Source of the DNA: a virus
Reading direction: 5' to 3' (one strand)
Length of the DNA: 64,000 nt
Virus record (IMG/VR): IMGVR_UViG_3300050821_009430
Coordinates: 1 to 64,000 of that record
A model generated the notes under the pieces. It was given only the letters and a program-made list of their open reading frames with translations. It ran no database searches and had not been told where the DNA came from. This document shows, piece after piece, positions 1-57,808 of the stretch (its first letter is position 1; each line of letters begins with the position of its first letter). The translations under genes were made by a program, and so were the position numbers.

Positions 1-336
1 CTCCGGGTAAAGTACCGAAATAGGTGTGCCGGAAGGCCGCTGCTGAGCATTTTGCTGAAACTGTGCCCATTGCAGTGCAAAACGCCGTTTATCTACATCG
101 TTAGCGGGACGTTCAACCACATTCAGGCGCTCGCCGGGGGCTGCAATACGCACATAAGGGATATCATCAAAAATCTGACGGCCCTCCTCACGGGATTTGA
201 GGGCATTGTGCACCGGACGCATATAGAAAATAGCGTGAGTGTCTTTACCCTGTGCATATTCCACCGTCCCAACCGTGCGGTCGGCATTGTTCCAGTTAAT
301 CCCAGTATGCGGTTGCAGTTCACCCATGTCACTCAT
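1..336 (-). CDS. conserved phage protein, head module (partial, runs off left edge)
   Basis: An open frame of 112 codons starts with ATG at 336-334 (MSDMGELQPHTG) and is still open at base 1. GAGGAG lies just upstream and the start overlaps the preceding stop as ATGA. The stretch reading YVRIAAPGERLNVV followed by DKRRFALQWAQF resembles a conserved protein seen next to capsid genes in many prophages. Its function is not known to me; its position suggests a virion or head-to-tail role. The C-terminus lies outside the window. Confidence 0.7.
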   Translation of the reverse strand, partial: MSDMGELQPHTGINWNNADRTVGTVEYAQGKDTHAIFYMRPVHNALKSREEGRQIFDDIPYVRIAAPGERLNVVERPANDVDKRRFALQWAQFQQNAQQRPSGTPISVLYPE

Positions 337-1805
337 ACCCTAAACTCCTCTGATATTACTGCCGAAGGCACGTACTTACGGCTTGGTTTTCCAGCCCATG
401 CTGTCTTATCGGCCATTTTAATTCTGCGCTGATCCGCCAGTTCACGCAATGCAGATGTCATTCTCTCTAGAACTTCTTCCCAATCGTGGGGCTTCTTCTG
501 AGTGAATAACTGCATGGTAGGATACCACGGCGTAGTGTCGCGGTCCATGAGCCACCGCCAGCAAGCATCATAGCGGCTCAATAGCCATGTAGGCTTGCCC
601 AAACCCCCCGCTACATGGGCTACTGATGTATCTACCGTGATCACAAGATCAAGGCATTGGATCAGTGCCGCTGTATCGAAGAAATCATATAGATCGGCTG
701 TCCAGTCACCAATAGTCATGCCCGGCAAGCCACCTTTTATCTGTTCTTTGGCTGGCCCCAATTGTAACGAGACCCATGAAATGCCTTTAAGCTGAGCCAG
801 TGGGGCAAACTGCTGTAAAGACATAGAACGACGTGCATCAATAGAACTAGCCAACGGATCGGCATCACGGTTCATGCCTGCCCAACACACCCCCACCAAC
901 AAACCGTCAGGCAGCGCCTTTAGGCGATCCCGCCAAACCGAAGCGCGGTAATCATCGTATGGAAGGTACGGGCATTCAGCCGGTATAGTTTCCAAAGTAA
1001 TACCAAGCACGCGGGGCACCGAAAGCATCGCAATACATGATTTGATGCCAAGCGGCGGCTTCTCACCTAACGTGATAATGCCATCAACGCCATCAACGCC
1101 ACGCAACAGCCGCGTCAACGGGTGCACTACCTCCAAATAAACCTTGCCACCCCATTTGGCTTTGGCCTGCTTGGCAAAACGGCAGAATTGCAAAACATCC
1201 CCCATGCCCTGTTCGCCGTAGATCAACAGAATATCTTCTGGCCGTGTTGCTGCTTCGCCCGCCCATATCGGGTAACCAAAACCACGCGGTTTCATGACAG
1301 GGCCTTGCCACCGCCATTCAAATTCTTCAAAGCCTTCCTTGAGAAGGCCCAAGGTCAATAATGCCATCGCTTTGCCCAAATGAGCATTGCCGTAATCCGG
1401 TTTTATCTTAATAGCGGTGTTGTATGCTTCAAGCGCTTCTTCAACACGACGCATCCGCATCAAGGCATTTGCTTTATTGTTCGGTATTTCTGGTATCTTA
1501 TTACTTCTACGGAATGCCCGTTTGAAGTCATCAATCGCTTTATCAAATTGTTCTAAATCCAAATAGGCCGCGCCCCGGTTATTATAAGATTCGGCAGAAT
1601 CAGGCACCAAAGCGATGGCACGGTCGTAATTCAGCACCGCATCAAACGGGTGGCCCAAACCTTGTAACGCAGCCCCCCTGCTGTTCCATGCCGGGGCAAA
1701 ATCAGGTTGCTTGAGTAGAGTAGCATCGAGAAATAACATTGCCTCACGTAACTGGCCTTTGGCTTGAGTGGCCAAAGCTTTGGTAAAAGACTCCCTGAAA
1801 TCCAT
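333..1805 (-). CDS. TPR-repeat protein with GT-B-like glycosyltransferase domain
   Basis: This 490-residue protein has an N-terminal array of tetratricopeptide repeats (about residues 5-165; recurring patterns such as AYNTAIKIKPDYGNAHLGKA) and a C-terminal domain like the ADP-heptose:LPS heptosyltransferase/SPINDLY group. Segments LLIYGEQGMGDVLQF, VGVCWAGM and VITVDTSVAHVAGGLGKP are the nucleotide-sugar-binding signatures of that fold. It probably transfers a sugar to a protein or glycan; acceptor and donor cannot be read from sequence. The start at 1805 is chosen because GGAG lies about 9 bases upstream; an in-frame ATG at 1817 has a poor ribosome site. It is preceded by a terminator, so it may be expressed at a reduced level relative to the capsid genes. 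With the sugar genes at 14-22 kb it suggests glycosylation of virion or host surface. Confidence 0.8.
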   Translation of the reverse strand: MDFRESFTKALATQAKGQLREAMLFLDATLLKQPDFAPAWNSRGAALQGLGHPFDAVLNYDRAIALVPDSAESYNNRGAAYLDLEQFDKAIDDFKRAFRRSNKIPEIPNNKANALMRMRRVEEALEAYNTAIKIKPDYGNAHLGKAMALLTLGLLKEGFEEFEWRWQGPVMKPRGFGYPIWAGEAATRPEDILLIYGEQGMGDVLQFCRFAKQAKAKWGGKVYLEVVHPLTRLLRGVDGVDGIITLGEKPPLGIKSCIAMLSVPRVLGITLETIPAECPYLPYDDYRASVWRDRLKALPDGLLVGVCWAGMNRDADPLASSIDARRSMSLQQFAPLAQLKGISWVSLQLGPAKEQIKGGLPGMTIGDWTADLYDFFDTAALIQCLDLVITVDTSVAHVAGGLGKPTWLLSRYDACWRWLMDRDTTPWYPTMQLFTQKKPHDWEEVLERMTSALRELADQRRIKMADKTAWAGKPSRKYVPSAVISEEFRV

Positions 1806-1817
1806 TCTACACTCCAT

Positions 1818-3020: not shown

Positions 3021-5281
3021 TCAAGAGGTTAACACGCCCTGCAGAAAGGCATTCGACAAAGACATGTTACCCGCCCAGCCGATAAGACGAACCATTGCGT
3101 CTTGATTGATGGAGAAGCGGTCTGGGTCAAGCGGTACCATGTTTCGGCGGGCATGCGGACGCCAGTGCAGATACTTCGTATTGAGGAAGTAGCCTGTAGT
3201 CGCAGGCGCACCGCCAACCGCACTAGTGGACGAGCTGACCTGGGGCGGCAGCGGGTCGGTGCTGAAGCCCTGGAAGCCGCCGTCCAGCACGACATCCGAG
3301 TTCAGGTACTTGAGCACCTGAAACCCGGCTTCGGCCATGTCACCCGGCACCGCTTCCGGCCCAATACGCTGAATGCTCTGAAGGGCCTGCAAATAGTAAC
3401 GATACATGATGTTATCCATGATAATCAAATCAGGATAATCACGCCCGCGCACCAATTGCACCCACAACGCATTCATTTGGCTGATGATGTTGGATGCCGA
3501 AAGGTTAACACCACCATTGGTGCTGGCAGACCACGCTTGGTTGCGCCAAAACTGCCACTGGGAACGATCGATGCCACCCACAACACCCGTAGTTGGCGAA
3601 CTGGCCACCAACAATTGCAGGCCACCAACCGAATTGGCGACCGTACCATCGCCGTACACGCCTTGGGAGAGACCGTTCATGACAAACTGTTACGCCTGGG
3701 GCACCTCTTCTTTGCCCAGGGGGCTGGTCATTTCTGCCAGCCTCTACACGTTCCCGTGTAGCTCGGAGCACATCTTCCCTTCCGGGGTTGGCCCATGCTC
3801 TCTACACACGCCCAGTGATCCTAAGATCACCTGCTTGGCTCGGTATTACCCTTCCGCACATACTTATTATACGTCTGCCGGGCATTGGGTTTCCACCGAA
3901 TTCGCCAACATTCTGACCACGTCCTTTTAACTACGTGGCAGCCCTCATGTCGAAGGTGTCTTCAGCATTCATAATTCTCGATTCGAGAAGATCAATTATG
4001 GCTTCTTCGCCGCTGTTCTGGAGTTCTTCCAGACCAGAAATCGAAACTGCCACAGCCGCCTGACGAATCGGGTACTCTGCCGCACTGAACACTTGACTCG
4101 GAGCGATGTTAAGCGTCTGATAACCTGAGTACCACTGATAGGTCTGGTTCAGTCAGTTCGCTATGTCGGCTCTTTATCCGACATGTCAACAGCTTCAAAC
4201 GTTCGCTGTTGCTCAGACTATCTCATCACAAGCAGGCCGACTGACAATCAACTTAGCTCTGGTAGGCCTCTTTCGTGCCGCCTCACTCAACTTGGCTCTA
4301 AAGGCTGGGTCCTTGAACCGCTTACGCCTCTCAGCAAGTTGTTTCTTGCGGTACTCCGGGTTTGCCCACATCGCCTTCGTAGCAGCACTAAGCTTCTCAC
4401 CGTTAGCTGCGGCATATTCTTTGTGCCGCTTCGTCTGGAGCTCCCTGTAAGCTGGATCTTGCCAATTGGCCCGCTTACTGGCCCCCATCCTAGCTTTTAC
4501 GCCCGGTTGCTTGCTTATGCTCCTCAGTTGCGCTATGCGCTTCACTCGGTATTCTGGGTCTTTCCACCGCTTACCCCAGTAAGCCTTCAGGTTCTTTGAG
4601 AACACAGAACCGTCAGGGAGCTTGCCTACGGTAGTCAGTAGATTAAACCCAAACTTAGGCTCACCTGCTTTGTAGAAGTCAATCCACCACTGTTCCCTAT
4701 GACGCCGATCACTTACTGCACAGACCTCAACCACCTTACCCGAGAAGGTTTCGGAACCATATTTATTCCAAGCCTTTTGCAGGTAGGAATTTATATGAAT
4801 CCCTTTACCCAACTCCCGCCAATGTGCCTTTAACCTTACACGGCTAACCTTGGCAGAACCAACATAAACACGGCCTGTCACAGAACACGTAATCACATAG
4901 ATATCAACAGTGGCAACCTTACTCATGCCGGGCGCTCGTGGGTGGGTTATTCTTTCGTCACCACCTAGTCGTTACACCTTCCGCAACCCTTTGACCACGC
5001 GTTTTTAAGAATTTGCGGGGTCATACATCTGCGGCTTGGCACGGTGTTGGCATCTCAGCGTTCACCGTAATTCACCCGGTTTAGCGCGGACCAACCAATT
5101 AATCCGCGTAATTTAACTCTTGGACGATAGTACGGCCACCCGAAAAAGTTTTCAGATTGCCACGCCGAGTCAGCCGCAACAGTGCCGCGTTATTACGCGA
5201 CATGTTATCGGCAAGTTCCCCGGTTCGATTCCGAAGCGTCGTAGTGACAATTTCGGACAGGTTGGGAAATGCGCTAGCCAT
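3021..5281 (-). CDS. major capsid protein, three exons split by two group I introns
   Basis: Joining 5281-5102 (60 codons), 4143-3933 (211 bases) and 3682-3021 (662 bases) gives one frame of 350 residues plus stop (1053 bases). Exon 1 starts MASAFPNLSEIVTTTLRN behind AGAGG and ends NYAD; exon 2 reads TYQWYSGYQTLNIAPSQVF and ends near DTFDMRAAT; exon 3 continues MNGLSQGVYGDGT and GGIDRSQWQFWRNQ. This is the order found in uninterrupted capsid proteins of this phage family, which are also about 350 residues. Without splicing, exon 1 stops at TAA (5101-5099) and exon 2 at TAG (3933-3931). The exon 1/2 junction is well supported; the exon 2/3 junction could shift by a residue or two. Scaffold and portal lie upstream. 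Bases 5282-5471 ahead of the gene form a 190-base leader with no evident ORF. Confidence 0.88.
3683..3932 (-). ncRNA. group I intron 2 in major capsid gene (no ORF)
   Basis: A 250-base insertion separates capsid exons 2 and 3. On the minus strand GAGAGCATGGGC (about 3802-3791) and AAGATGTGCTCC (3776-3765) form the R and S elements: GAGCA pairs with TGCTC as P7, with CCC-GGAA-GGG between them as a short P8. The 5' exon end GCCACGT can pair with ACGTGGT just inside the intron as P1. The proposed end is the G at 3683. Joining the exons restores the frame. The last exon base pairs with A rather than the usual G, so the exact 5' site is less sure than for intron 1. Confidence 0.8.
4144..5101 (-). 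ncRNA. group I intron 1 in major capsid gene, carrying an endonuclease ORF
   Basis: A 958-base insertion lies between capsid codons for NYAD and TYQW. Exon 1 ends CGCGGAT, which pairs with GTCCGCG about 11 bases into the intron, giving P1 with the expected U-G pair at the splice site. GTAACGACTAG (about 4975-4963) and AGATAGTCTGA (about 4221-4211) are the R and S elements (GACTA pairs with TAGTC, P7). The intron ends with G at 4144. The endonuclease ORF sits between R and S, that is, in the P8 loop. All this is typical of phage group I introns in essential genes. Confidence 0.88.
4213..4926 (-). CDS. GIY-YIG homing endonuclease inside capsid intron 1
   Basis: This 237-residue protein begins with the GIY-YIG domain: DIYVITCSVTGRVYVGSA holds the two short motifs (here YVI and YVG), followed by HINSYLQKAWNKYG and the catalytic-region Glu in REQWWIDFY. 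The second half is basic with repeated W/F-x-DPAYR or NPEYR segments (about residues 117-225), a DNA-binding layout known in phage homing enzymes. It should cut intronless capsid alleles and spread the intron. Its final codons (GAT GAG ATA GTC TGA) are also the S strand of the intron P7, so coding and ribozyme sequence overlap. No good ribosome site is seen. Confidence 0.85.
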   Translation of the reverse strand: MSKVATVDIYVITCSVTGRVYVGSAKVSRVRLKAHWRELGKGIHINSYLQKAWNKYGSETFSGKVVEVCAVSDRRHREQWWIDFYKAGEPKFGFNLLTTVGKLPDGSVFSKNLKAYWGKRWKDPEYRVKRIAQLRSISKQPGVKARMGASKRANWQDPAYRELQTKRHKEYAAANGEKLSAATKAMWANPEYRKKQLAERRKRFKDPAFRAKLSEAARKRPTRAKLIVSRPACDEIV

Positions 5282-17584: not shown

Positions 17585-18142
17585 TCAGCGATATTCTTTG
17601 GCATATTCAACAAGAACCGTACTGCCCTTGGCTTCGAATGCGTTCTGATACGCTGACACAATCATGCCTGCATCAATCAATCTTACAAGAGCCGTAGTTC
17701 GAAACATGCGCCTGAATGCTTCGGTGAAATCGGCGTCATGCTGGGATTGCGGATTGAAAGGGTGCGAACTGGGGGCAGCTACCCTGATAATGACCTTGGG
17801 CCAATAACCGCCACTAGAATACAACGGAATACGATCAAGATGATTAACAAGCTGATCGGCTGCCCGCAACATGAAGTTCCATCTTGGAATAATACAAACC
17901 GGAACATAACCGTTCAGGCTCATGCCAATACACATGCCCATTTGCATTTCTTCGGCCACTGGCATTTCAATACGCTTGTCAATAGGCACACCCGTCAAAG
18001 AACTACTTAGCGCCGTGCCCTCACAGCCAACACCCTGACCAAAGAACATCACTCGTTCCTGCTGACCAAGCCACGTCATGGCCCGGCTTAGCTCACCATT
18101 ATAGCTCACGGTTCTCCCGAATAAGCTTCCGTACAAACTCAT
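17585..18142 (-). CDS. E1-beta-like pyrimidine-binding half of a TPP enzyme
   Basis: The 185-residue protein matches the pyrimidine-binding domain of E1 beta/transketolase proteins. EMPVAEEMQMGMCIGMSLNG holds the Glu that activates the thiamine cofactor; FFGQGVGCEGTALSSS is the early segment. It lacks the C-terminal transketolase domain of full E1 beta (usual length about 330). The ATG at 18142 overlaps the stop of the alpha-like partner (ATGA), so the two subunits are made together. Reaction unknown; presumably a 2-keto or ketose substrate. Confidence 0.8.
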   Translation of the reverse strand: MSLYGSLFGRTVSYNGELSRAMTWLGQQERVMFFGQGVGCEGTALSSSLTGVPIDKRIEMPVAEEMQMGMCIGMSLNGYVPVCIIPRWNFMLRAADQLVNHLDRIPLYSSGGYWPKVIIRVAAPSSHPFNPQSQHDADFTEAFRRMFRTTALVRLIDAGMIVSAYQNAFEAKGSTVLVEYAKEYR

Positions 18143-18732
18143 TGCATGTGAACCCAACGGCCACTTCCGACATGCGGATAAGATAATTCATAATGGTATC
18201 TGCGAACGTTTATATCGTGATTGCCACCCCACACCGCTTTGGTATCGGTAGCTACCGACTTGCCATTGTCCTCGACAATAACGACCAAGGGCAAGTCATG
18301 GCCGCGTGCATAGCGAGTGCACTCGTGCACAATGCCTGACATCGCCGCCATATCGCCAATGAAGCAATAGACCTTGTCACCTTTACCGTCACGCTTAGCG
18401 GCCCAAGCCAGCCCCAGCGCCACCGGCACTATGCCCCCTACCATGGCTGAACAAATCACACGCTGTTGGGGAAAGCACAACGCAATGGAACGGCCTTCAA
18501 GAATGGCAGCTTTGAGTTCTTCAGGGGGCACACCCTTCAAGAGGCAATGCAGGTGGCTTCGCCAAGTCCCACCTACCCAATCGTTTTCTTTTATATTGTC
18601 AAATATGTCAATCAGGGTTTGCTCATTGCCCCCGCCCAAATGAACCGGGGCCTTGATCTTACCCGCATTGAATTTGGCAACAATATCTGCTTCAAACGCC
18701 TTCAGCGTTTCAACCGTGTGCCCGGTATCCAT
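18139..18732 (-). CDS. E1-alpha-like TPP-binding half of a TPP enzyme
   Basis: The 197-residue protein has the E1-alpha layout: TWRSHLHCLLKGVPPEELKA, SAMVGGIVPVALGLAWAAKR and the cofactor motif GDM...EDN (residues about 127-156). The motif is normally GDG; Met replaces Gly. It is much shorter than pyruvate dehydrogenase E1 alpha (about 320-360). With the beta-like gene it should form one TPP active site. No E2 or E3 partner is nearby, so a free decarboxylase or transketolase-like reaction in sugar synthesis is more likely than a dehydrogenase complex. Confidence 0.8.
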   Translation of the reverse strand: MDTGHTVETLKAFEADIVAKFNAGKIKAPVHLGGGNEQTLIDIFDNIKENDWVGGTWRSHLHCLLKGVPPEELKAAILEGRSIALCFPQQRVICSAMVGGIVPVALGLAWAAKRDGKGDKVYCFIGDMAAMSGIVHECTRYARGHDLPLVVIVEDNGKSVATDTKAVWGGNHDINVRRYHYELSYPHVGSGRWVHMQ

Positions 18733-19856
18733 TACAAAAATTCCATATGCGGGGGCTGCGGCTCGTTTGAAAAGGCCACGGTGCCTTTCATGAATTTATC
18801 CAGCCAAGAATTAGTGTTCGTCTGCAAACAATTAGGCCCGCAAGATTTCTGTGCATCAAATTCATCGGAGCCAAGATACCTGATCACTTCCCAGTAACGG
18901 TCACTGGCCCAAATGTCTTTGAACCGTGTGTCGCAGATATTCCCAATATGAAATTTTTTGTACTTTTCGTTAAAAAGGAACCCACAGGGGGCCACAAGAC
19001 CGCTACCGGATACCTGAAGAATAAACGGAGGGCCATAACAGCGCTGATAGTCACGTTTGCCCTCATTGACCAGCCTGCCCCACTTCACACTCACCCTGAA
19101 AGTATCGTCTGTATAGGTTTCAATCTCACGAAACTTATCTTCAAGTGCGGCATACTTAGAGTAATCAACGCCAAGCTGCCCCTCCACATCATCAGCACAA
19201 TGCTTGATGACCAAATAATCGGGCCTAAGGACATCACGACAAAGCTTGGCCAACGGTATGATTTCATCCTCGTCTTCAGGCATACAAACCATCTGGACAT
19301 TAATATTGACCGGCAAATTATCGCGGTGCTTGATTGCCATGGCATCCTTGATGTTCTGAATAACACGATCAAAGAACACCTTATTCAAACCCATGGTTTT
19401 GGCGTAGCCCTCACGGGTGCCTGCACCAAAATGAAAGCGCAAATAGCTGAGACACGGCAGCAACCGTTCCAACACCACCTTGTTCAGCACCACGCCATTG
19501 CTGGAAGCGCCAGTGGCAATGCCAAGCGCATGAGCATATTCCACAGCCTCAAGATAGTTCTTGTGCACCGTAGATTCGCCATCGCTGATAAATGAAATGC
19601 CCTTGACACCAATCTCGGCCGCATCTTCAAGAAAGTTGAACACCACTTCCTTGGTCTGATACTTGCGCTCGTTTTCCTGAAGCATGGCGTAGCAACACCG
19701 GCAGGAAGCCTGACATTCTCTCGTCATGGCATAATCAATGGTGATAGGAGCTATTTTTTCGCCGCGTTGCCATGCCAAAACTCTATCTTTATACCAGCCT
19801 ACTTTGGTGCCATCAATGATAAGCTGCTTGGTGAAATCCTGTGTCTGTTCGCTCAT
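18732..19856 (-). CDS. radical SAM protein with SPASM-like C-terminus
   Basis: The 374-residue enzyme has the 4Fe-4S cluster motif CQASCRCCYA (C-x3-C-x2-C, about residues 49-56), GISFISDGEST as the SAM-contact region, and a C-terminal Cys set (CGFLFN, CGPNCLQTN) like SPASM auxiliary-cluster domains. Such enzymes do radical chemistry on sugars or peptides. It sits between the TPP pair and the sugar isomerase genes, which points to modification of an activated sugar or carrier. Substrate unknown. Confidence 0.85.
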   Translation of the reverse strand: MSEQTQDFTKQLIIDGTKVGWYKDRVLAWQRGEKIAPITIDYAMTRECQASCRCCYAMLQENERKYQTKEVVFNFLEDAAEIGVKGISFISDGESTVHKNYLEAVEYAHALGIATGASSNGVVLNKVVLERLLPCLSYLRFHFGAGTREGYAKTMGLNKVFFDRVIQNIKDAMAIKHRDNLPVNINVQMVCMPEDEDEIIPLAKLCRDVLRPDYLVIKHCADDVEGQLGVDYSKYAALEDKFREIETYTDDTFRVSVKWGRLVNEGKRDYQRCYGPPFILQVSGSGLVAPCGFLFNEKYKKFHIGNICDTRFKDIWASDRYWEVIRYLGSDEFDAQKSCGPNCLQTNTNSWLDKFMKGTVAFSNEPQPPHMEFL

Positions 19857-20041
19857 ATGGCATCGTCTTTCTTCAATTTCTGCCGGGGCTTGTTCTGATC
19901 GCGCATCGTATCCATGAACACTTCGGCGCGCACACCAAGCATCTTTCTGGCTAAGCGCTCAACCTCAAGCAAGAACGACCCCTTGTCAATGCCGTGGAAA
20001 CCTTCGCCAAGAAACTTGATATTGATCGGGTAATCAGACAT
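19853..20041 (-). CDS. small protein coupled to radical SAM gene
   Basis: The 62-residue protein (MSDYPINIKFLGEGFHGIDK) has a helix with acidic and basic faces (FLLEVERLARKML). Its stop overlaps the start of the radical SAM gene (ATGA), and its own start has GGTGA upstream. Tight coupling suggests it is a partner or carrier for that enzyme, but there is no clear carrier motif. Confidence 0.55.
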   Translation of the reverse strand: MSDYPINIKFLGEGFHGIDKGSFLLEVERLARKMLGVRAEVFMDTMRDQNKPRQKLKKDDAI

Positions 20042-20042
20042 T

Positions 20043-20186
20043 TCAATCACCATAGATGCCATACCGAGGGCCACATTCAAGGCACACACCGCCTATAAAA
20101 TAAATTAGAAGAAATGGAAACCAGAACCCGCGCACACCGGCTATGACCATGCCAACCGCACAAATTATGGCAAAAGGCTTTCTCAT
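20043..20186 (-). CDS. small membrane protein (47 aa)
   Basis: The frame MRKPFAIICAVGMVIAGVRG continues with FWFPFLLIYFIGG and ends at TGA 20045-20043. It has two hydrophobic stretches. Its ATG overlaps the stop of the isomerase gene (ATGA) and its stop is one base from the next start, so it fills the gap exactly. No family recognised. Confidence 0.55.
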   Translation of the reverse strand: MRKPFAIICAVGMVIAGVRGFWFPFLLIYFIGGVCLECGPRYGIYGD

Positions 20187-20755
20187 GCCGCTATTTCTTT
20201 ACTTCGTTTTTCTTCCATGAGAGCATCACACACCGCATGTAAAAGAATACTGTGAGCCAGTTCAACGCAGCCGTAGCTTTCCGACGGCACATAAAAGCTT
20301 ATATCGCCAATGATGCGTAACTTGTTGTGTGGATGGAAGCCGGTAAAGGTCATGACAAACATCCGCTTCTCATGCCCGGCTTTTGCCGCCTGAATAATAT
20401 TTCGTGAAGCACCTGAACTTGAAATAGCAATTAAAATATCGTTCGGTCTGCCGTGACATTCAACCTGCTTGGCATAAGCTTCGTCATAGCCAAAATCATT
20501 GGCTAAGCAGGTCAATGCCGAGGGATCGGAAAGCACCATGGCCCGCAGCCCGGCATTTTTCACAAGGTCAATCACAACGTGACTGGCAATGGCCGAGGAA
20601 CCGCCATTGCCAATAACCAGTATCTTGCCGCCGTTACCGTCAACCCAGCGAAGCAGGCTGACAACTTCACCCAATCCTTTTTCCAATGTCAGTTCGCCCG
20701 TGACCAGTGTATTGCCCACCGCCACCATAAGCGACGCAATGTAATCTTTTATCAT
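20183..20755 (-). CDS. gmhA: SIS-domain sugar-phosphate isomerase, GmhA-like
   Basis: The 190-residue protein is a single SIS domain with KILVIGNGGSSAIASHVVID, SALTCLANDFGYDEAYAKQV and ILIAISSSGASRNIIQAAKA, the signature of phosphoheptose isomerase GmhA and close relatives. GmhA converts sedoheptulose-7-phosphate to D-glycero-D-manno-heptose-7-phosphate. Length fits the family. ATG at 20755 overlaps the HldE-like stop. Pairing with an HldE-like enzyme supports a heptose route; a different phosphosugar substrate cannot be excluded. Confidence 0.8.
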   Translation of the reverse strand: MIKDYIASLMVAVGNTLVTGELTLEKGLGEVVSLLRWVDGNGGKILVIGNGGSSAIASHVVIDLVKNAGLRAMVLSDPSALTCLANDFGYDEAYAKQVECHGRPNDILIAISSSGASRNIIQAAKAGHEKRMFVMTFTGFHPHNKLRIIGDISFYVPSESYGCVELAHSILLHAVCDALMEEKRSKEIAA

Positions 20756-22077
20756 TTGAGAAGCCATTCGATGTTTTTCAAAATGTCATCGCGGCCAACA
20801 TGCTGGCGGTGACCCAATATAGCGGTTTTGAGGCCACCCGCAACATTGCCTACAAAGGCCGCCAGTTCAAGCGGCAGCCCGGCCGCTACCAGGGGGGCAC
20901 TCACGGCTAAAAACGCATCACCGGCCCCCATAGTGTCAAAGCCGGTGCTTACAAACGCGGGTATGGCAACATCACCCACCAAGCAACCGTAGCGGCCCCG
21001 CGTGATGACTATATTTTCGGTTTGCAGCCTGTTGGCAATCCGCCGAACAATCTGCGGTAATGCAATATGACGGTCCCTGACCGTCAGCATGGCTTCCGGC
21101 TCGTCCACGCAAACATAATCGGCCCGGTGATAATTGAACACACTATTGAAACCGTAGTTCCCGGCATTGGCCTGGGCCGTCACGGCAAGGAACTTTGCGG
21201 TTTGCAACGCCTCACGCTCAAGCTGACCCAGCAAGCCATGACCAAAATCAAAAGCAATGCACAAGTCAGCCTGAACAATCAGTTCACCAAGTTTCTTTCT
21301 AAAGCTGACCCGTTCGTCGGCTTCAATTTCTATTTCCCTGCTTGAATAAACCTCAAACAGCTTGCGTGAGAAATCGGCATCGACAAAACGTGTTTTGGTG
21401 ATGGTGGCAAAACTGGTAATCACTTCGGCCCCGCGCCACTCACCGTGCTTGGCGGCGGCCCGCACCCCACCATTGAACTTTTCCGTGTTGGTGCCTACCA
21501 CCGCAAGGATAAATTCCTTTGACGGCTTGGCCAAAGGCTTCACGTAACGGTATTCGTCTATGACGGTTTCACCTATAAAGGCTATCTTGAGTTTATCCGC
21601 CCTTTCAAATGCCTGAAGAATATCTGGCAGGTATTTACGCACACCTTCAATATAGGCCAAGGCAGCATCGCTGAGTTTGACGGTACGCAATAGTTCGGTT
21701 GAGGACCACTTTTCGGCGGTAGTGATATGAAAGCTGCCGCCAATCAGCTCCACCGCCTCACGTTCAATGGCCAGATAAGGATTATCGGTATTGGCATAAT
21801 CGGGGCCTTTGACGTAAACCGCAGGCTTGATTTTATAGATAGAATCAACCGCCGTGCCGGTTTCACTGATAATCACTTCGTCCACACATTCCAGCGATAA
21901 TAATGCTTCGCGGCGCTGCTCGGCGGTGAAGTGCGGCCTACCGGGGCCTTTATTGACGTGGGCATCGCAGGTGATGCTGACCACCAGCCGGTCACCCAAG
22001 GAACGGGCTTCCGTCAAATGACGGATATGACCCAAATGCAATAAATCAAAACAGCCATGGGCTAGAACGGTATTCAT
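20752..22077 (-). CDS. bifunctional nucleotidylyltransferase/PfkB sugar kinase, HldE-like with swapped domains
   Basis: The 441-residue protein starts with a cytidylyltransferase-like domain (AHGCFDLLHLGHIRHL, the HxGH motif, residues about 6-21; VYVKGPDY) and ends with a ribokinase/PfkB domain (FNGGVRAAAK, NIVITRGRYG, GFDTMGAGDAF with the catalytic Asp). HldE of E. coli has kinase first and transferase second; here the order is reversed. It would phosphorylate a heptose-phosphate-like sugar and activate it with a nucleotide. ATG at 22077 overlaps the stop of a tiny membrane gene; a longer in-frame start at 22155 would add a hydrophobic leader and is unlikely. Confidence 0.83.
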   Translation of the reverse strand: MNTVLAHGCFDLLHLGHIRHLTEARSLGDRLVVSITCDAHVNKGPGRPHFTAEQRREALLSLECVDEVIISETGTAVDSIYKIKPAVYVKGPDYANTDNPYLAIEREAVELIGGSFHITTAEKWSSTELLRTVKLSDAALAYIEGVRKYLPDILQAFERADKLKIAFIGETVIDEYRYVKPLAKPSKEFILAVVGTNTEKFNGGVRAAAKHGEWRGAEVITSFATITKTRFVDADFSRKLFEVYSSREIEIEADERVSFRKKLGELIVQADLCIAFDFGHGLLGQLEREALQTAKFLAVTAQANAGNYGFNSVFNYHRADYVCVDEPEAMLTVRDRHIALPQIVRRIANRLQTENIVITRGRYGCLVGDVAIPAFVSTGFDTMGAGDAFLAVSAPLVAAGLPLELAAFVGNVAGGLKTAILGHRQHVGRDDILKNIEWLLK

Positions 22078-22205
22078 GGAAAGTACCAATACCAAGCATA
22101 TTCCAACAAAGGCCACCAAATCAAAATACCCAAAACGGTCACACTCATAAAACACAACAGCAGAAGCGCCACGATCAGGTTTTCAATAGTGAAGTAGTGG
22201 ATCAT
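22074..22205 (-). CDS. small membrane protein (43 aa)
   Basis: The frame MIHYFTIENLIVALLLLCFM is followed by a second hydrophobic stretch and ends WYWYFP. Its TGA overlaps the HldE-like ATG (ATGA). It is one membrane span or a hairpin. No family recognised; the overlap and composition support a real gene. Confidence 0.55.
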   Translation of the reverse strand: MIHYFTIENLIVALLLLCFMSVTVLGILIWWPLLEYAWYWYFP

Positions 22206-30972: not shown

Positions 30973-32184
30973 ATGGTCAACAAAAAAGCATTTGATGCTG
31001 TTATACGAGCACGTACCATTTTAGTGGTAGGGCAACCTTTTTTCGGCACGCTCGCCCTGCATCTGAATGTAGTGGAGGTTACCAATCCGGCTCAGGTCAA
31101 TACCATGGCCGTGGACGGCGTGAACCTCTATTTCTATGCACCGTTTGTTCTTGGGCTGAGTGAAGAGGAAATTGTTGGTGTCATTGCCCACGAAACGATG
31201 CACTGCGCCTATAGCCACTTCTCGAGACGTGGGCACCGCGATGCCCGCAAGTTCAATATTGCCGGTGACTTTAGAATTAACGACGACCTGAGAAAAGTTC
31301 CATTTACATTGCCAATGAAGCCAATCAATCTCAAACAATTGATGGCCGGCGAACAGGGTCATTTGTACGATCCCCAATTTGCCAATATGAGCACCGAAGA
31401 GATCTATGAAAAGATACCTGACCCGCCGCAAGCCCCGCAAGGGGGCAGGGGGCTTGATGACGGCGGCTGTGGGGCCGTGCTTGATGCAGGCAGTGGCGCG
31501 GCTGATGGCCCTGACAAGGCCAGTGCTGAGCAAATAGCCCATGAATGGCAGGCTAACGTGCGTATGGCTGTCAGCGTGGCCCGTGCCGCCAATGCGGGCA
31601 GCACACCGGGCTACCTTGAGCGGCTAGTCACGCAATTGAAGCGCCCCAAGGTTTCATGGCGTGACCTGACCCGGCAGTTCATTGACCAGTCAATGACCAC
31701 TGATTACAGCTACCGCAAGCCTAACCGCCGTCACATTGCCAGCGGTTTGATCCTGCCCGGCAGCGTGCCCGATGCTTTGCACGAACTGGTCATGTTCGTT
31801 GACTGCTCAGGCAGTATCAGCGACGAAATGATGCACAGTTATGTCAGCGAAGTGGCCGGTGCATTGGACGACGGAACAGCCGATAAGCTGTGGGTTGTCT
31901 ACGCCGATGACGGGGTGCGGCATGTGGACGAGTACATGCCGGGTGACGTCGTGAAGTGCAAAACACTTGGGGCCGGTGGTACTAACTTCGATGACAGCTT
32001 CAAATGGCTTGTGAAGAATGCCCCCGATGCCGCCTGCGCTATTTACCTCACCGACATGGAAACTGGATCGTTCGGCCAGGACCCCGGTATCCCAACTATG
32101 TGGGGGTGCTATTCGACCGAAGAAAGACTAAAATCAATCAAGCCACCATTCGGAACTCTTATCTTGGTGGAAGGCCCTCACTAA
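30973..32184 (+). CDS. DUF2201-type metallopeptidase-like protein with VWA-like domain
   Basis: The 403-residue protein has VIAHETMHCAYSHFSRRG (HExxH zinc motif, about residues 73-77) and a C-terminal VWA-like domain with the metal-site motif VMFVDCSGSISDEMM (DxSxS). A Gly-rich linker lies between (about 155-185). It pairs with the MoxR ATPase. The ORF ends in a 26-base tail-to-tail overlap with the inserted endonuclease gene; the last residues (LVEGPH) may have been changed by that insertion. Confidence 0.85.
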   Translation: MVNKKAFDAVIRARTILVVGQPFFGTLALHLNVVEVTNPAQVNTMAVDGVNLYFYAPFVLGLSEEEIVGVIAHETMHCAYSHFSRRGHRDARKFNIAGDFRINDDLRKVPFTLPMKPINLKQLMAGEQGHLYDPQFANMSTEEIYEKIPDPPQAPQGGRGLDDGGCGAVLDAGSGAADGPDKASAEQIAHEWQANVRMAVSVARAANAGSTPGYLERLVTQLKRPKVSWRDLTRQFIDQSMTTDYSYRKPNRRHIASGLILPGSVPDALHELVMFVDCSGSISDEMMHSYVSEVAGALDDGTADKLWVVYADDGVRHVDEYMPGDVVKCKTLGAGGTNFDDSFKWLVKNAPDAACAIYLTDMETGSFGQDPGIPTMWGCYSTEERLKSIKPPFGTLILVEGPH

Positions 32185-32839
32185 CATGTATCCATGCAGT
32201 CCGTTTCCATATTGCATAAATTGCAGTAACAGATATTCCAAATTCCTGCGCTAACATAGGTCCACTCTTTTTACTCATATAAATATATCTAACCTGATTA
32301 AGCGTCAATTTAATATTTTGACGGGTTTTCTTATCTTTGTGGTAAGTATGATAACCTTGAACACATGCAGTGCCGTTCGGGCATTTACATTTACTGCCAA
32401 GTTTTAATTTTCTGGTTTCCCGCTTCCAAATTTGTTTAGTTCGAATATCATAAATCGTGTCATAACTTACCCCATATTGGGTGCTTAATTTTCTCATACA
32501 TGCGTTTTTGGCTATAAAAATTTCCTTCACTTTTTTAGTGGTCAAAATGTTTCCACCAGAAGATTCGCCGTGTACTTGAGAACCATTAACAATTCTATCT
32601 TTGCTATTCTGTTCATGAAGAATGCACTCAACATTCCAAGGGGCATAAGGGCCTTTGTCGCCCTTGCGGGCCATCACATATCGGCCCCGTCCCCGCCCAC
32701 GTTTCTTCATCCAATTATAGCCTAAATGATCCTCCCACCACTCAACCCATTCTTCAAAAGTAAATTTCCATACTATATTTCGTTCAAAAGCGGTTTGCCG
32801 TTGTTCTCTAAAACGTTGTTTTACTAAGTTAATACCCAT
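32159..32839 (-). CDS. HNH-type homing endonuclease, free-standing
   Basis: The 226-residue protein has VMARKGDKGPYAPWNVECIL and HEQNSKDR, as in phage HNH-like homing enzymes, preceded by WVEWWEDHLG. Two helix-turn-helix repeats follow (MRKLSTQYGVSYDTIYDI and MLAQEFGISVTAIYAIW). It is AT-rich and runs against the rightward operon, both signs of insertion. GGAAAG precedes ATG 32839. Confidence 0.8.
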   Translation of the reverse strand: MGINLVKQRFREQRQTAFERNIVWKFTFEEWVEWWEDHLGYNWMKKRGRGRGRYVMARKGDKGPYAPWNVECILHEQNSKDRIVNGSQVHGESSGGNILTTKKVKEIFIAKNACMRKLSTQYGVSYDTIYDIRTKQIWKRETRKLKLGSKCKCPNGTACVQGYHTYHKDKKTRQNIKLTLNQVRYIYMSKKSGPMLAQEFGISVTAIYAIWKRTAWIHVSEGLPPR

Positions 32840-32862
32840 CTTGCTTTCCTCACCGTAAATTA

Positions 32863-32877
32863 GTATAGTTACTATAC
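32863..32877. promoter_or_regulatory. palindromic operator between divergent genes
   Basis: GTATAGT-T-ACTATAC is a perfect palindrome 23 bases ahead of the endonuclease start and 23 bases ahead of the HTH gene start. It contains TATAGT and TATACT, which could be -10 boxes. A site for the HTH protein is a natural guess. Confidence 0.5.
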
Positions 32878-32900
32878 CTATAGGCCATAGGAGGCAATAC

Positions 32901-33104
32901 ATGAATTGGTTTGCATTGCAACGCCAACAATGGATTAAAGAAACGATAGAAATATTTGGATTCATTAATAGAGAGCACCTGGAACTAAAATTTGGGATAT
33001 CAACTCCCAAAGCTTCTAAAGACTTGCAAGAATATCAAAAGCTTTATCCTAAAACGATAATTTATAATAAAACATCTAAAAGATATGAAAAAGGGCCACA
33101 CTGA
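32901..33104 (+). CDS. small winged-helix regulator-like protein
   Basis: Sixty-seven residues with HLELKFGISTPKASKDLQEY and YNKTSKRYEKGP. This matches the N-terminal HTH of WYL/DeoR-like regulators (recognition helix with PKASKDLQ). AGGAGG gives a strong ribosome site. It is AT-rich like the endonuclease gene and divergent from it, so the two may have arrived together. Confidence 0.7.
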   Translation: MNWFALQRQQWIKETIEIFGFINREHLELKFGISTPKASKDLQEYQKLYPKTIIYNKTSKRYEKGPH

Positions 33105-54822: not shown

Positions 54823-55100
54823 ATCAAATCATAGCTGCCGTAGAAGCAGCCGCCCGTGTCCCTCAAGGCTCAACCCGCGATACATCATGCCGGGTCTATG
54901 AGATCAGCCTTGCACGTCATATTGCCTGTTACATTGCCAGAAAAGAAACACATCTATCGTTCAAAAGAATAGCCACAGCTTTTGGCACCGACGATCATAA
55001 GATTGGCCTTTATGCCTTCAATAAAATTTCGATAGCCCTGCTTAATAGGGACCCTCATGTAATTCGAGTAGTGAATGAAGCTTCAAGCCCGGTGGCTTGA
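54810..55100 (+). CDS. stand-alone DnaA domain IV-like protein
   Basis: The 96-residue protein has LARHIACYIARKETHLSFKR and IATAFGTDDHKIGLYAFNKI, the layout of DnaA domain IV (host: AFGGRDHTTVLHA). The Arg of LARHI and the DH pair that contact the DnaA box are kept; the Arg before DH is Asp and the Thr after is Lys. The AAA+ domain is absent. It may occupy or read DnaA boxes. It overlaps the CtrA-like gene. Confidence 0.8.
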   Translation: MRSIDQIIAAVEAAARVPQGSTRDTSCRVYEISLARHIACYIARKETHLSFKRIATAFGTDDHKIGLYAFNKISIALLNRDPHVIRVVNEASSPVA

Positions 55101-55102
55101 AG

Positions 55103-57808
55103 ATGTCATTCTTTTTTACCAAAAGTACCCCCCGTGCCAAAGCCACGGAGGCGGTCACTGGTAAGGGTTTTTTAGCGGGCACCCTACCTACCACAATAAG
55201 GCGGAATCCTGCCGTATGGGCACGTCTAGGCTGTGCTGGCTGTCCCCTCAATAAAGCTTCTGGCATAGTCACGCCGTTGATGGAACCAACCCTAAGCAAA
55301 GGGGGGCAAATCTATTTCCTTGCGGAAGCACCGGGGCGTGATGAAGATGAGAACACAGGCAGGCCTCTTACCGGGCCGTCAGGTTCATTATTGCGCGAAT
55401 GTATTCCTGAGGATTGGCAAGATGAATGTTCGTTTGATAATATAATAAACTGCCGACCGCCGGGCAATAGAACACCACAATGGCAAGAAATTGAATGTTG
55501 CCGCCCAAGACGTACGAAATACATAGAACAGGCAAAGCCCAAGCTGATTGTGGGATTAGGCGCGGTACCGTTACAGGCTATCCTTGGTTCATCTGATTTG
55601 CAGGGAATGCGTGGCAGGCTCTTTGCCGTTAAATTTGGTGAACATCATTGCTGGTTCCTCCCTACTTATCATCCATCATTTATTCTGAGAATAGCCAAGA
55701 ACAAAAGGAAGCCACTCAATTCAATGATGGGCCATTGTTTCAGGATGGACATCAGAAAAGCATTTGAACTGGTGGCCGATCTTGAATTGCCCCACATTGA
55801 TACTGAGGCAGAGATTAGATCAGGAATACAATGTTTTGACGGTTCCAAACAAAGCCACCATCAAGCTATTATTGATCTTTTATATGAAGCCCGTAAGGCA
55901 CCCCTCAAAGCGGTAGATATAGAAACCAAAGGGCTACGCCCGTACAAAACCGACGCAGCCATCATGACCTGTGCCCTCAGTTTTGAGGATACCAATTTTG
56001 CATTTGCCTTGGATCATCCACATTCTAAATGGCCCGCGCACATTAAAGAGAAAATACGAATATTGCTTGAAAGCATTCTAAAGGATGACACTGTAAAGAT
56101 AGCTCACAATGTCCCATTCGAACTCGAATGGTTTATCTGGTATTTTGGCAAACACATAATCAATCACCATGCGTGGCACTGCACGCAGATGCAGGCTCAT
56201 TTTCTCGATGAGCGTCGTGGCAAGTCACGAAGTTCAGATGAAAACGACCGCCGCGCCGCCTATCAGGCATTAGATTTCCTCTGCAAACAACATTTTGGCT
56301 TCACCTACAAATCGCTGTTCAAGCTAAATAAGAAGGATATGTCCAAATCTGATCTTGGCGAAACGTTACTCTATAATGGCGTCGATACCAAAATAACGCT
56401 GCGGTTACATCATTGGCAGATCAGACTGCTGAAGAAGTTTGGCCTCTATAAAGCCTACCTTGAGGCACGCCCACGCCAAACCTCAGTAGCCATGATGCAA
56501 TACCTCGGCGTTAATGTGGATCAGGCCGAGGTTAAGAAAGCCCAAAAGAAGCTTGGCCCTCAGATCAAAGTATTAGAGGCCAATATTGCCGAATTGAAAG
56601 TGGTGAAAGCCTTTGTACAGGATCACAAAGAGTTCAATCCACTCTCAAACGATCATGCTATCACAATTTTCAAGGATTACCTGAAAAGGCCCGAAGTTCA
56701 GATCAAACAGGAACGTCACGAAGCACATAATTTCAACAAATCATCCGATAGCAAAAAGCGTTTCGATAAAGGGCCTGAAATACGATACTCAGTTGATAAA
56801 GGTGTTCTTGCGCAGATTGACCACCCCCTAGCTGGAAAAATTATTGACCTCCGCAACCGCACCAAACTGAAAAGCACCTATGTAGATTGCCTAGAACTTG
56901 GCAAAGGAGAAATGATTTACCCGGATGGAGCAATTCATTGTAATTTCAATACAACTTTTGCAGAAACCGGACGCACAAGTTCCGATGATCCAAATATGCA
57001 GAATTATCCTCAACGCACTGATGCGTGGGTGCGCAATCAAATAGCTGCTAAGGATGGGCATCTTTTGCTGGCCTTTGACTACGGCCAATTGGAAGCCTGC
57101 ACAGCCGCGATGTGTTCCCAGGACAAAGTGTTGGTAAAAGCACTGTGGGAGGATTACGATATTCATATGGAATGGGCAATCAAAACAGCCCACCAGTACC
57201 CGGCCATTATAGGGGGCAAGAAGTGCATCCAAGATAAAGACGTAATGAAGAAGTTTAGGTCAAAGATAAAGAACAAATTAGTCTTTCCGGCAATATTTGG
57301 GGCACAGAATTCATCTATTGCTGGCTACCTTGATATGCCAGTTGAGGAAATTGATGTTTTGATGCGTGAATTTTGGAAAACGTTCTATGGCCTTGCTGAA
57401 TGGCAAGATAAATTGATGAAGAAATATTATGAAGATGGTTATGCTGAAAGTCCTACCGGACGTAGGCGTCACTACCCTATGACCCGCAATCAGGCAATTA
57501 ACGATCCAATTCAAAGCGTGGCATGCGATATAGTTTGTCGTTCAATGAATGATCTTTCAGAGTTAGCGACGGTTGAGAAAAAATGGTACTTACATCCAAT
57601 TTTGAACATTCATGATGATCTCTCATTTCAGGTACAAAACAACGATAGAATTATTGAAAAAGCCATTAAAGATATATATAGAATTATGCTAACTCCAAAC
57701 TATGACTTCATTAATGTACCGTTATCAGTTACTTGTTCTATAGGAAAGCACTGGTTTGGCATGGAAGAAATTGGAAAGTTTTGGTCTCACAAAGACATTA
57801 AGAAATAA
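55103..57808 (+). CDS. UDG-like/3'-5' exonuclease/PolA-type DNA polymerase fusion
   Basis: The 901-residue protein begins with a family 4/5 uracil-DNA-glycosylase-like domain (CAGCPL, AEAPGRDEDENTGRPLTGPS, NCRPPGNRTP, TYHPSFIL, residues about 40-210). A DnaQ-like exonuclease follows (AVDIETKG, about 270; AHNVPFELEW). The C-terminal PolA domain has DYGQLE (motif A), VFPAIFGAQ (O-helix region) and NIHDDLSF (motif C). The main replicative polymerase; an N-terminal UDG-like domain is known in a few phage polymerases such as SPO1. Confidence 0.9.
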   Translation: MSFFFTKSTPRAKATEAVTGKGFLAGTLPTTIRRNPAVWARLGCAGCPLNKASGIVTPLMEPTLSKGGQIYFLAEAPGRDEDENTGRPLTGPSGSLLRECIPEDWQDECSFDNIINCRPPGNRTPQWQEIECCRPRRTKYIEQAKPKLIVGLGAVPLQAILGSSDLQGMRGRLFAVKFGEHHCWFLPTYHPSFILRIAKNKRKPLNSMMGHCFRMDIRKAFELVADLELPHIDTEAEIRSGIQCFDGSKQSHHQAIIDLLYEARKAPLKAVDIETKGLRPYKTDAAIMTCALSFEDTNFAFALDHPHSKWPAHIKEKIRILLESILKDDTVKIAHNVPFELEWFIWYFGKHIINHHAWHCTQMQAHFLDERRGKSRSSDENDRRAAYQALDFLCKQHFGFTYKSLFKLNKKDMSKSDLGETLLYNGVDTKITLRLHHWQIRLLKKFGLYKAYLEARPRQTSVAMMQYLGVNVDQAEVKKAQKKLGPQIKVLEANIAELKVVKAFVQDHKEFNPLSNDHAITIFKDYLKRPEVQIKQERHEAHNFNKSSDSKKRFDKGPEIRYSVDKGVLAQIDHPLAGKIIDLRNRTKLKSTYVDCLELGKGEMIYPDGAIHCNFNTTFAETGRTSSDDPNMQNYPQRTDAWVRNQIAAKDGHLLLAFDYGQLEACTAAMCSQDKVLVKALWEDYDIHMEWAIKTAHQYPAIIGGKKCIQDKDVMKKFRSKIKNKLVFPAIFGAQNSSIAGYLDMPVEEIDVLMREFWKTFYGLAEWQDKLMKKYYEDGYAESPTGRRRHYPMTRNQAINDPIQSVACDIVCRSMNDLSELATVEKKWYLHPILNIHDDLSFQVQNNDRIIEKAIKDIYRIMLTPNYDFINVPLSVTCSIGKHWFGMEEIGKFWSHKDIKK

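Follow-up and report, generated by a model that had tools for sequence, protein, structure and literature searches.

The stretch of DNA analyzed here (the window) comprises bases 1–64000 of a 78,457-base IMG/VR virus record, and its source is a virus of bacteria. It contains a major capsid protein (MCP) gene that runs on the minus strand from an ATG at 5281, with a GAGG-type ribosome site upstream, to a TGA at 3023–3021. An earlier sequence-only reading had placed at 3021–5281 a capsid gene split by two group I introns into three exons that are separated by stops. The gene and its three-exon arrangement were confirmed, and the strand, which that reading had left unstated, is the minus strand. 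The joined exons matched phrog_9953, 'major head protein', with an E value of 2.6e-98 over residues 4–349 of 350 (the 350-residue join of the earlier reading was the one scored). The gene lies downstream of the terminase (12027–10357, minus strand), the portal (10348–7706, minus strand) and further head-region genes, and no second MCP copy was found in the 78-kb record.

Among cultured phages, the nearest relatives are Bradyrhizobium phage ppBjS10J-1 (52%), Stenotrophomonas phage BUCT555 and the Myxococcus phages Mx8 and Mx9, in all of which the MCP is encoded in one piece. Prophage-like relatives (37–59% identity), all of them single uninterrupted matches, were also found in bacterial genomes of Burkholderiales, Nitrosovibrio, Caulobacteraceae and Rhizobiales. 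These matches suggest proteobacterial hosts; they do not fix the host of the window itself. An AlphaFold model of an intron-less capsid homologue was too poor (pLDDT 44) to bear on an HK97 fold.

Several other genes of the window were noted. A 494-residue open reading frame (ORF) beside the capsid region (333–1817, minus strand) has, by eye, tetratricopeptide-like repeats and a glycosyltransferase-like C-terminus. A sugar-metabolism block at 17585–22155 (minus strand) encodes a cytidylyltransferase and a PfkB kinase (HldE-like), a SIS-domain isomerase (GmhA-like), a radical SAM/SPASM protein and a thiamin-enzyme pair split over two proteins, with possible glycosyltransferases down to 14168; it perhaps serves the synthesis of an ADP-heptose-type surface sugar. 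A single 903-residue protein encoded at 55097–57808 combines a uracil-DNA glycosylase domain, an exonuclease and a family A DNA polymerase.

Exon borders

A scan of viral contigs yielded 68 relatives, of which 48 have an uninterrupted MCP gene. The borders were defined by spliced alignment to a profile built from these intron-less relatives alone. Exon 1 (5281–5102) holds codons 1–60, exon 2 (4149–3954) holds codons 61–126, with codon 126 split after its first base, and exon 3 (3682–3021) holds the remainder of codon 126 through codon 345 and the stop TGA. The same three exons were obtained whether or not the splice rule, T before the intron and G at its end, was rewarded. Intron 1 therefore spans 5101–4150 (952 nt, inserted in phase 0 behind codon 60, with U as its first and G as its last base) and intron 2 spans 3953–3683 (271 nt, inserted in phase 1 within codon 126 and likewise ending in G), and the joined protein has 345 residues, compared with 340–345 in the intron-less relatives. 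Both corrected introns obey the group I rule of U before the intron and G at its end, and both junctions are gap-free against the intron-less genes at the DNA level.

One border of each intron differs from the earlier reading. For intron 1, given as 5101–4144, the 5' border stood and the true 3' end lies 6 nt earlier, at 4150; for intron 2, given as 3932–3683, the 3' border stood and the true start lies 21 nt earlier, at 3953, both as judged from the intron-less relatives. Because these two inner splice sites had been misplaced, the 350-residue product and the junction peptides NYAD/TYQW and AAT/MNG proposed for mass spectrometry were wrong; the corrected junctions are NYAD/NQTYQW and NAEDT/FMNG. 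At the first junction the displayed relatives read NYA[D/N]N[Q/E]T[F/Y]QW, and the earlier protein, NYADTYQW, lacks the two residues NQ or NE. At the second, the intron-less relatives typically read NAEDTFMNG, and the heptapeptide that the earlier join put between NAEDT and FMNG (NAEDTFDMRAATFMNG) occurs in none of the 48. A spliced alignment with the profile anchored on the earlier protein itself reproduced the earlier borders and was discarded as circular.

Ribozyme structure of the two introns

Covariance models were built specifically for this phage group because Rfam, searched at the gathering level, gave no match in the window. The introns of the group were sorted into three classes by their core motifs; intron 1 belongs to class A and intron 2 to class B, and the motif of class C introns is absent from the window. 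The class A model (R2) was built from 22 introns and contained no window sequence, and the class B model (R1) was built from 15 introns with window intron 2 in its training set. R2 matched intron 1 with 107.2 bits (E = 2.4e-36) at 4883–5119, with a further 24.4 bits for the 3' part at 4151–4291, and matched intron 2 with 54 bits (E = 1.1e-17); across the 78-kb record it gave no match beyond these two. The covariance-model search that the sequence-only reading had suggested as a check thus recovered both introns with a model built without the window. R1 found intron 2 only, at 235 bits, a score to be read with the presence of this intron in its training set. The general model RF00028 gave 17.1 bits for intron 1 and 15.1 bits for intron 2; both scores fall under the gathering cut-off of 50 bits and count against the group I reading. 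This cut-off is a convenience and not a defining feature of group I introns. In nine relatives it matched 28 introns, 14 of them over the cut-off (51–96 bits).

The helices are preserved by compensatory change. With helices P3–P9 and the P7 pseudoknot written in, standard pairs were found in 97.6% (class A) and 96.4% (class B) of cells, against 33–40% when the partners were slid. Both sides had changed in 33 of 40 pairs in class A and in 37 of 56 pairs in class B, with P3 and P7 among them, and the P7 variants GACUA/UAGUC, GCACA/UGUGC, GCAUA/UAUGC, GAGCA/UGCUC and GAUCA/UGAUC change in step. The complementary P7 strands reported earlier for both introns are present. In intron 1 the 5' strand (R element), GACUA, lies at 4970–4966 and the 3' strand (S element), UAGUC, at 4220–4216, and the helix covaries in the class A relatives. 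In intron 2 the strands are GAGCA (3800–3796) and UGCUC (3770–3766); relative to this P7, the intron at site 56 of the relative L062 carries a compensated G-C to U-A change. The P3 strands of intron 2, GUUGGC (3909–3904; columns 82–87 of alignment A1) and GCCAAC (3792–3787; columns 213–218), are 100% paired in that alignment, with both sides changed in five of the six pairs. A class B intron 77% identical to intron 2 occupies the identical site in L062.

P1 of intron 1, TACGCGGAU/GUCCGCG, comprises seven exon pairs, including the U-G pair at the splice site that had been recognized earlier, and three extension pairs. P1 of intron 2, ACACCU/GGG, has 3 + 3 pairs. The hairpin CCACGU|AGUUAAAAGGACGUGG, which the earlier border implied as the P1 of intron 2, was rejected since it is P2, conserved across class B; likewise, the hairpin with loop AGUUAAAAGG at the start of the intron as first drawn is the P2 helix kept in this class, which overlapped the exon because the border had been set 21 nt too far downstream. 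The mean P1 pairing score was 15.0, against 11.3 ± 0.4 with the exon ends re-dealt (500 draws, largest 12.6). Without the reward for the splice rule, the exon ended in T in 45 of 61 modelled introns and the intron ended in G in 45 of 61.

These features bear on the proposal that no RNA splicing takes place and that the three pieces are separate polypeptides that co-assemble, or that the ribosome hops over the gaps. An in-frame ATG at 3680 begins exon 3, and a 219-residue fragment could therefore be translated. Against this, the insertions are covarying group I ribozymes in which P1 pairs with the exon end, and the interrupted genes of relatives have exons as short as 22–27 nt and introns in all three codon phases. 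We consider this proposal scarcely credible; splicing is predicted from the gene structure and the ribozyme architecture.

Endonuclease genes

An endonuclease gene had been described in one of the two introns only; it lies in intron 1, and intron 2 has no internal gene. The ORF (4926–4213, minus strand) encodes a GIY-YIG homing endonuclease of 237 residues, which scored 66.6 bits against TIGR01453 (group I intron endonuclease; cut-off 56.05) and also matched PF01541. Its final codons overlap the P7 S strand of intron 1, and no clear ribosome site was found before it. The nearest solved relative is the catalytic domain of I-TevI (E = 1.9e-7), and an arginine opposite R27 is conserved. The glutamate of the motif REQWWI stands opposite residue 75 of I-TevI, which is alanine in the listed 1MK0 chain, a chain that we take to be the I-TevI E75A mutant. 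The window thus resembles the T4 td intron and I-TevI in the catalytic domain and in having the ORF within the ribozyme, and differs in the host gene; in addition, W-x-DPxxR-type repeats (by eye) in the C-terminal half replace the DNA-binding part of I-TevI. The activity and homing of the window enzyme are predicted from its sequence.

Elsewhere in the window, a 283-residue endonuclease-like ORF without a Pfam match (32159–33010, minus strand) overlaps the end of a VWA/metallopeptidase gene and might be a free-standing homing endonuclease.

Among the introns of related capsid genes, where a subset of ORFs was scanned and some assignments were made by eye, other GIY-YIG enzymes occur in L045, L046, L049, L051, L059 and L062, HNH or HNH-like enzymes in L048 (antisense), L053, L063 and L064, and LAGLIDADG-like enzymes in L063 and L061 (antisense). 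The last two are labelled 'HNH endonuclease' in PHROGs; for one of them Pfam LAGLIDADG_1 gave E = 0.004. The presence of an endonuclease gene varies at a single site: at codon 41, the intron of L062 (895 nt) contains one, whereas those of L048 (243 nt) and L060 (235 nt) do not.

Introns in related capsid genes

Including the window, 13 interrupted MCP genes were modelled with 61 introns, of which 60 are credible; these occupy 31 sites and fall into the three ribozyme classes. There are nine introns each in L059 and L060, six in L049 and L062, five in L046 and L063, four in L048, L051, L053 and L064, two in the window and one in L045 and L061. The count for L064 was made after an artefact had been dropped, and a 51-nt insertion in L060 was counted as a remnant and not as an intron. 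The 'site 167' intron of L064 and tiny leading exons (codons 1–4) were rejected as alignment artefacts. Four further single-intron loci (L147–L150) have their intron at codon 28, L149 and L150 displaying identical products. The introns of this phage group are mostly 180–330 nt in length. The gene of L059, with its nine introns, spans 3,881 bases, and removal of the introns would leave a clean product of 343 residues with start, ribosome site and stop intact; splicing would remove ∼73% of a nine-intron capsid gene.

Two identical sites hold introns of different types: at codon 292, class B and another type (L059, 3924–4193; L062, 3963–4718), and at codon 321, classes B and C across L046, L063 and L053.

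Two genes depart from the intact pattern. In L060 (2177–2350), the 51-nt insertion at codon 28 has a P1-like start and two in-frame stops, where the introns of relatives measure 755–1050 nt; it seems to be an internally deleted intron, with an assembly error also possible. In L064 (3067–3620), ∼37 MCP codons are missing after the codon-129 intron and a small ORF is found there. The capsid gene of L064 looks damaged, recombined or misassembled, and that of L060 damaged or misassembled. Such cases would fit a decaying pseudogene, whose insertions have lost the ability to splice and whose intact counterpart resides elsewhere. We regard this as highly unlikely, however, given the single capsid copy in the record, the intact frame, start, ribosome site and stop in both the window and L059, and the compensatory changes that preserve the ribozyme helices. 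Furthermore, dN/dS is about 0.04–0.08 in spliced relatives where dS was measurable, many comparisons being saturated; for the window gene, dS is itself near-saturated (1.87), and its dN/dS is tied to that value.

Distribution of the introns

At the sensitivity of the models used, the introns are confined to the capsid gene. All R2 matches in 12 intron-bearing records of up to 95 kb fell within it, and R2 gave no match in five records with intron-less capsid genes. Searches with R1 (15 records) and RF00028 and three more intron-bearing records again placed introns in the capsid gene alone. This result is bounded by the models, which unlike intron types could escape, class C being covered by RF00028 and the motif only, and several of the records are fragments.

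Within the gene, the 31 sites lie in codons 8–129 and 291–338; codons 130–290 hold none, and no gap of this size arose in 20,000 random draws. The sites favour conserved codons, the entropy up to three codons away being 0.27 bits, compared with 0.49 ± 0.06 for random sites (p = 0.00015). Group I introns are already known to prefer such codons (PMC2814812). On the protein tree, at least five state changes are needed to account for the intron bearers. The nearest neighbours of the window, L046 (95% identical) and L048, have no site in common with it or with each other; since synonymous sites are saturated in the comparisons with the window, its split from them is not recent. The nearest relative of an intron was at the same site in another phage for 21 of the 60, at another site in the same gene for eight and elsewhere for 31. 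These patterns suggest, from sequence comparison, that gain, loss and movement between sites have all occurred.

It could also be that the introns splice but owe their retention chiefly to a regulatory effect, the delay or tuning of capsid expression, rather than to homing as parasites. They are found only in a highly expressed late gene, and many carry no endonuclease gene, as this idea would have it. At least 48 relatives nevertheless have no introns, near relatives share no site and several unrelated endonuclease families occupy the introns, and a mainly regulatory role appears improbable.

Discussion

The reading preferred here, to which, homing included, we assign a probability of about 0.93, is that the MCP gene is interrupted by two self-splicing group I introns of classes A and B. 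It is supported by the intron-less homologues, the helix covariation, the match to a head-protein profile and the purifying selection in spliced relatives. Under this reading, the late capsid transcript would carry two autocatalytic introns of different classes that had been acquired separately. Each would fold into P1–P9 with a P3/P7 core, a guanosine would serve to cleave behind the U that pairs with G in P1, and the exons would be joined after the terminal G of the intron, giving a single frame for the MCP of 345 residues. In co-infecting relatives, the I-TevI-like GIY-YIG enzyme of intron 1 would cleave, at this codon, capsid genes that have no intron, upon which the intron would be copied in. 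Intron 2 may have lost an endonuclease that it once carried, or may have been moved by recombination. For the group as a whole, the likeliest course is that endonuclease genes carry introns into conserved codons of a gene common to all co-infecting relatives and later decay or are swapped; the introns would persist because they splice.

This phage group has a hot spot for introns in its capsid gene, with at least 31 sites and up to nine introns per gene, matched in no other gene searched. By analogy, it may also be a battleground, in which rival endonuclease families target this gene alone, an occupied site removes the target of competitors, and up to nine introns have stacked up because co-infecting phages compete by means of their endonucleases. 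Phage PhiPA3 provides a precedent, competition of this kind having been shown for one of its intron endonucleases (PMC11620839). We offer this battleground reading tentatively and with more doubt than conviction.

Introns in capsid genes have been described before. In mycobacteriophage LittleE (Cluster J), splicing of a capsid gene intron was shown by RT-PCR and N-terminal sequencing, and the intron was graded 'most likely' group I by its authors (PMC3706429). As in the window, the MCP gene has an intron with an endonuclease gene, an exon ending in U and an intron ending in G; unlike the window, it has one intron, the endonuclease is LAGLIDADG-like and on the opposite strand and the host is actinobacterial (PMC3706429). 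A zeta-group crAss-like phage (cMAG OLRF01000054) likewise has a split capsid gene, in five fragments, with domains typical of group I introns in three of the four gaps (PMC7886860). The present group differs in having up to nine introns, in the capsid gene alone, whereas zeta-group genomes have up to 14 introns over many genes, together with inteins (PMC7886860). The Jug phages, also metagenomic, have many small group I introns with HNH and GIY-YIG endonucleases, and metatranscriptomes supported the splicing of 37 of their 76 predicted introns; their genomes, however, are of 360–402 kb, and their introns are spread across terL, nrdD, polymerase and other genes (PMC12363816). Skipping of exons has been reported for the terminase gene of phage SIOphi (PMC11878797).

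Comparable hot spots are found outside the phages. The capsid gene of Faustovirus E12 has 12 introns, five of them group I, two with GIY-YIG ORFs; this is a giant virus of amoebae, however, with an unrelated capsid protein and with spliceosome-like introns mixed in, at a mean length of 1.3 kb (PMC6247863). The cox1 gene of Agaricus bisporus is likewise a single-gene reservoir of group I introns, 18 in number, but it is mitochondrial and 29.9 kb long with large introns, compared with 3.9 kb for the phage gene (PMC2987802). The earlier view that two introns in one capsid gene, one with and one without an endonuclease, are rare hence needs qualifying, capsid introns being documented in other phages and four to nine introns being present in genes of this group. 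The literature, of which coverage was incomplete, yielded neither a phage capsid gene with over four gaps nor a case of many introns confined to such a gene, and this gives no proof of priority. The window is a further case of a known type of capsid intron, and the phage group is an extreme single-gene variant of it.

Because hundreds of copies of the capsid protein are required, the splicing of nine introns from one transcript should be efficient. In metagenomic phages, such capsid genes will be overlooked or broken up by gene callers. The set of introns combines 31 sites with three ribozyme classes; one site has alleles that carry an endonuclease gene and alleles that lack it, and close neighbours have no site in common. 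It thus serves as a natural experiment on the spread of group I introns to new sites and on the reasons for the targeting of a single gene.
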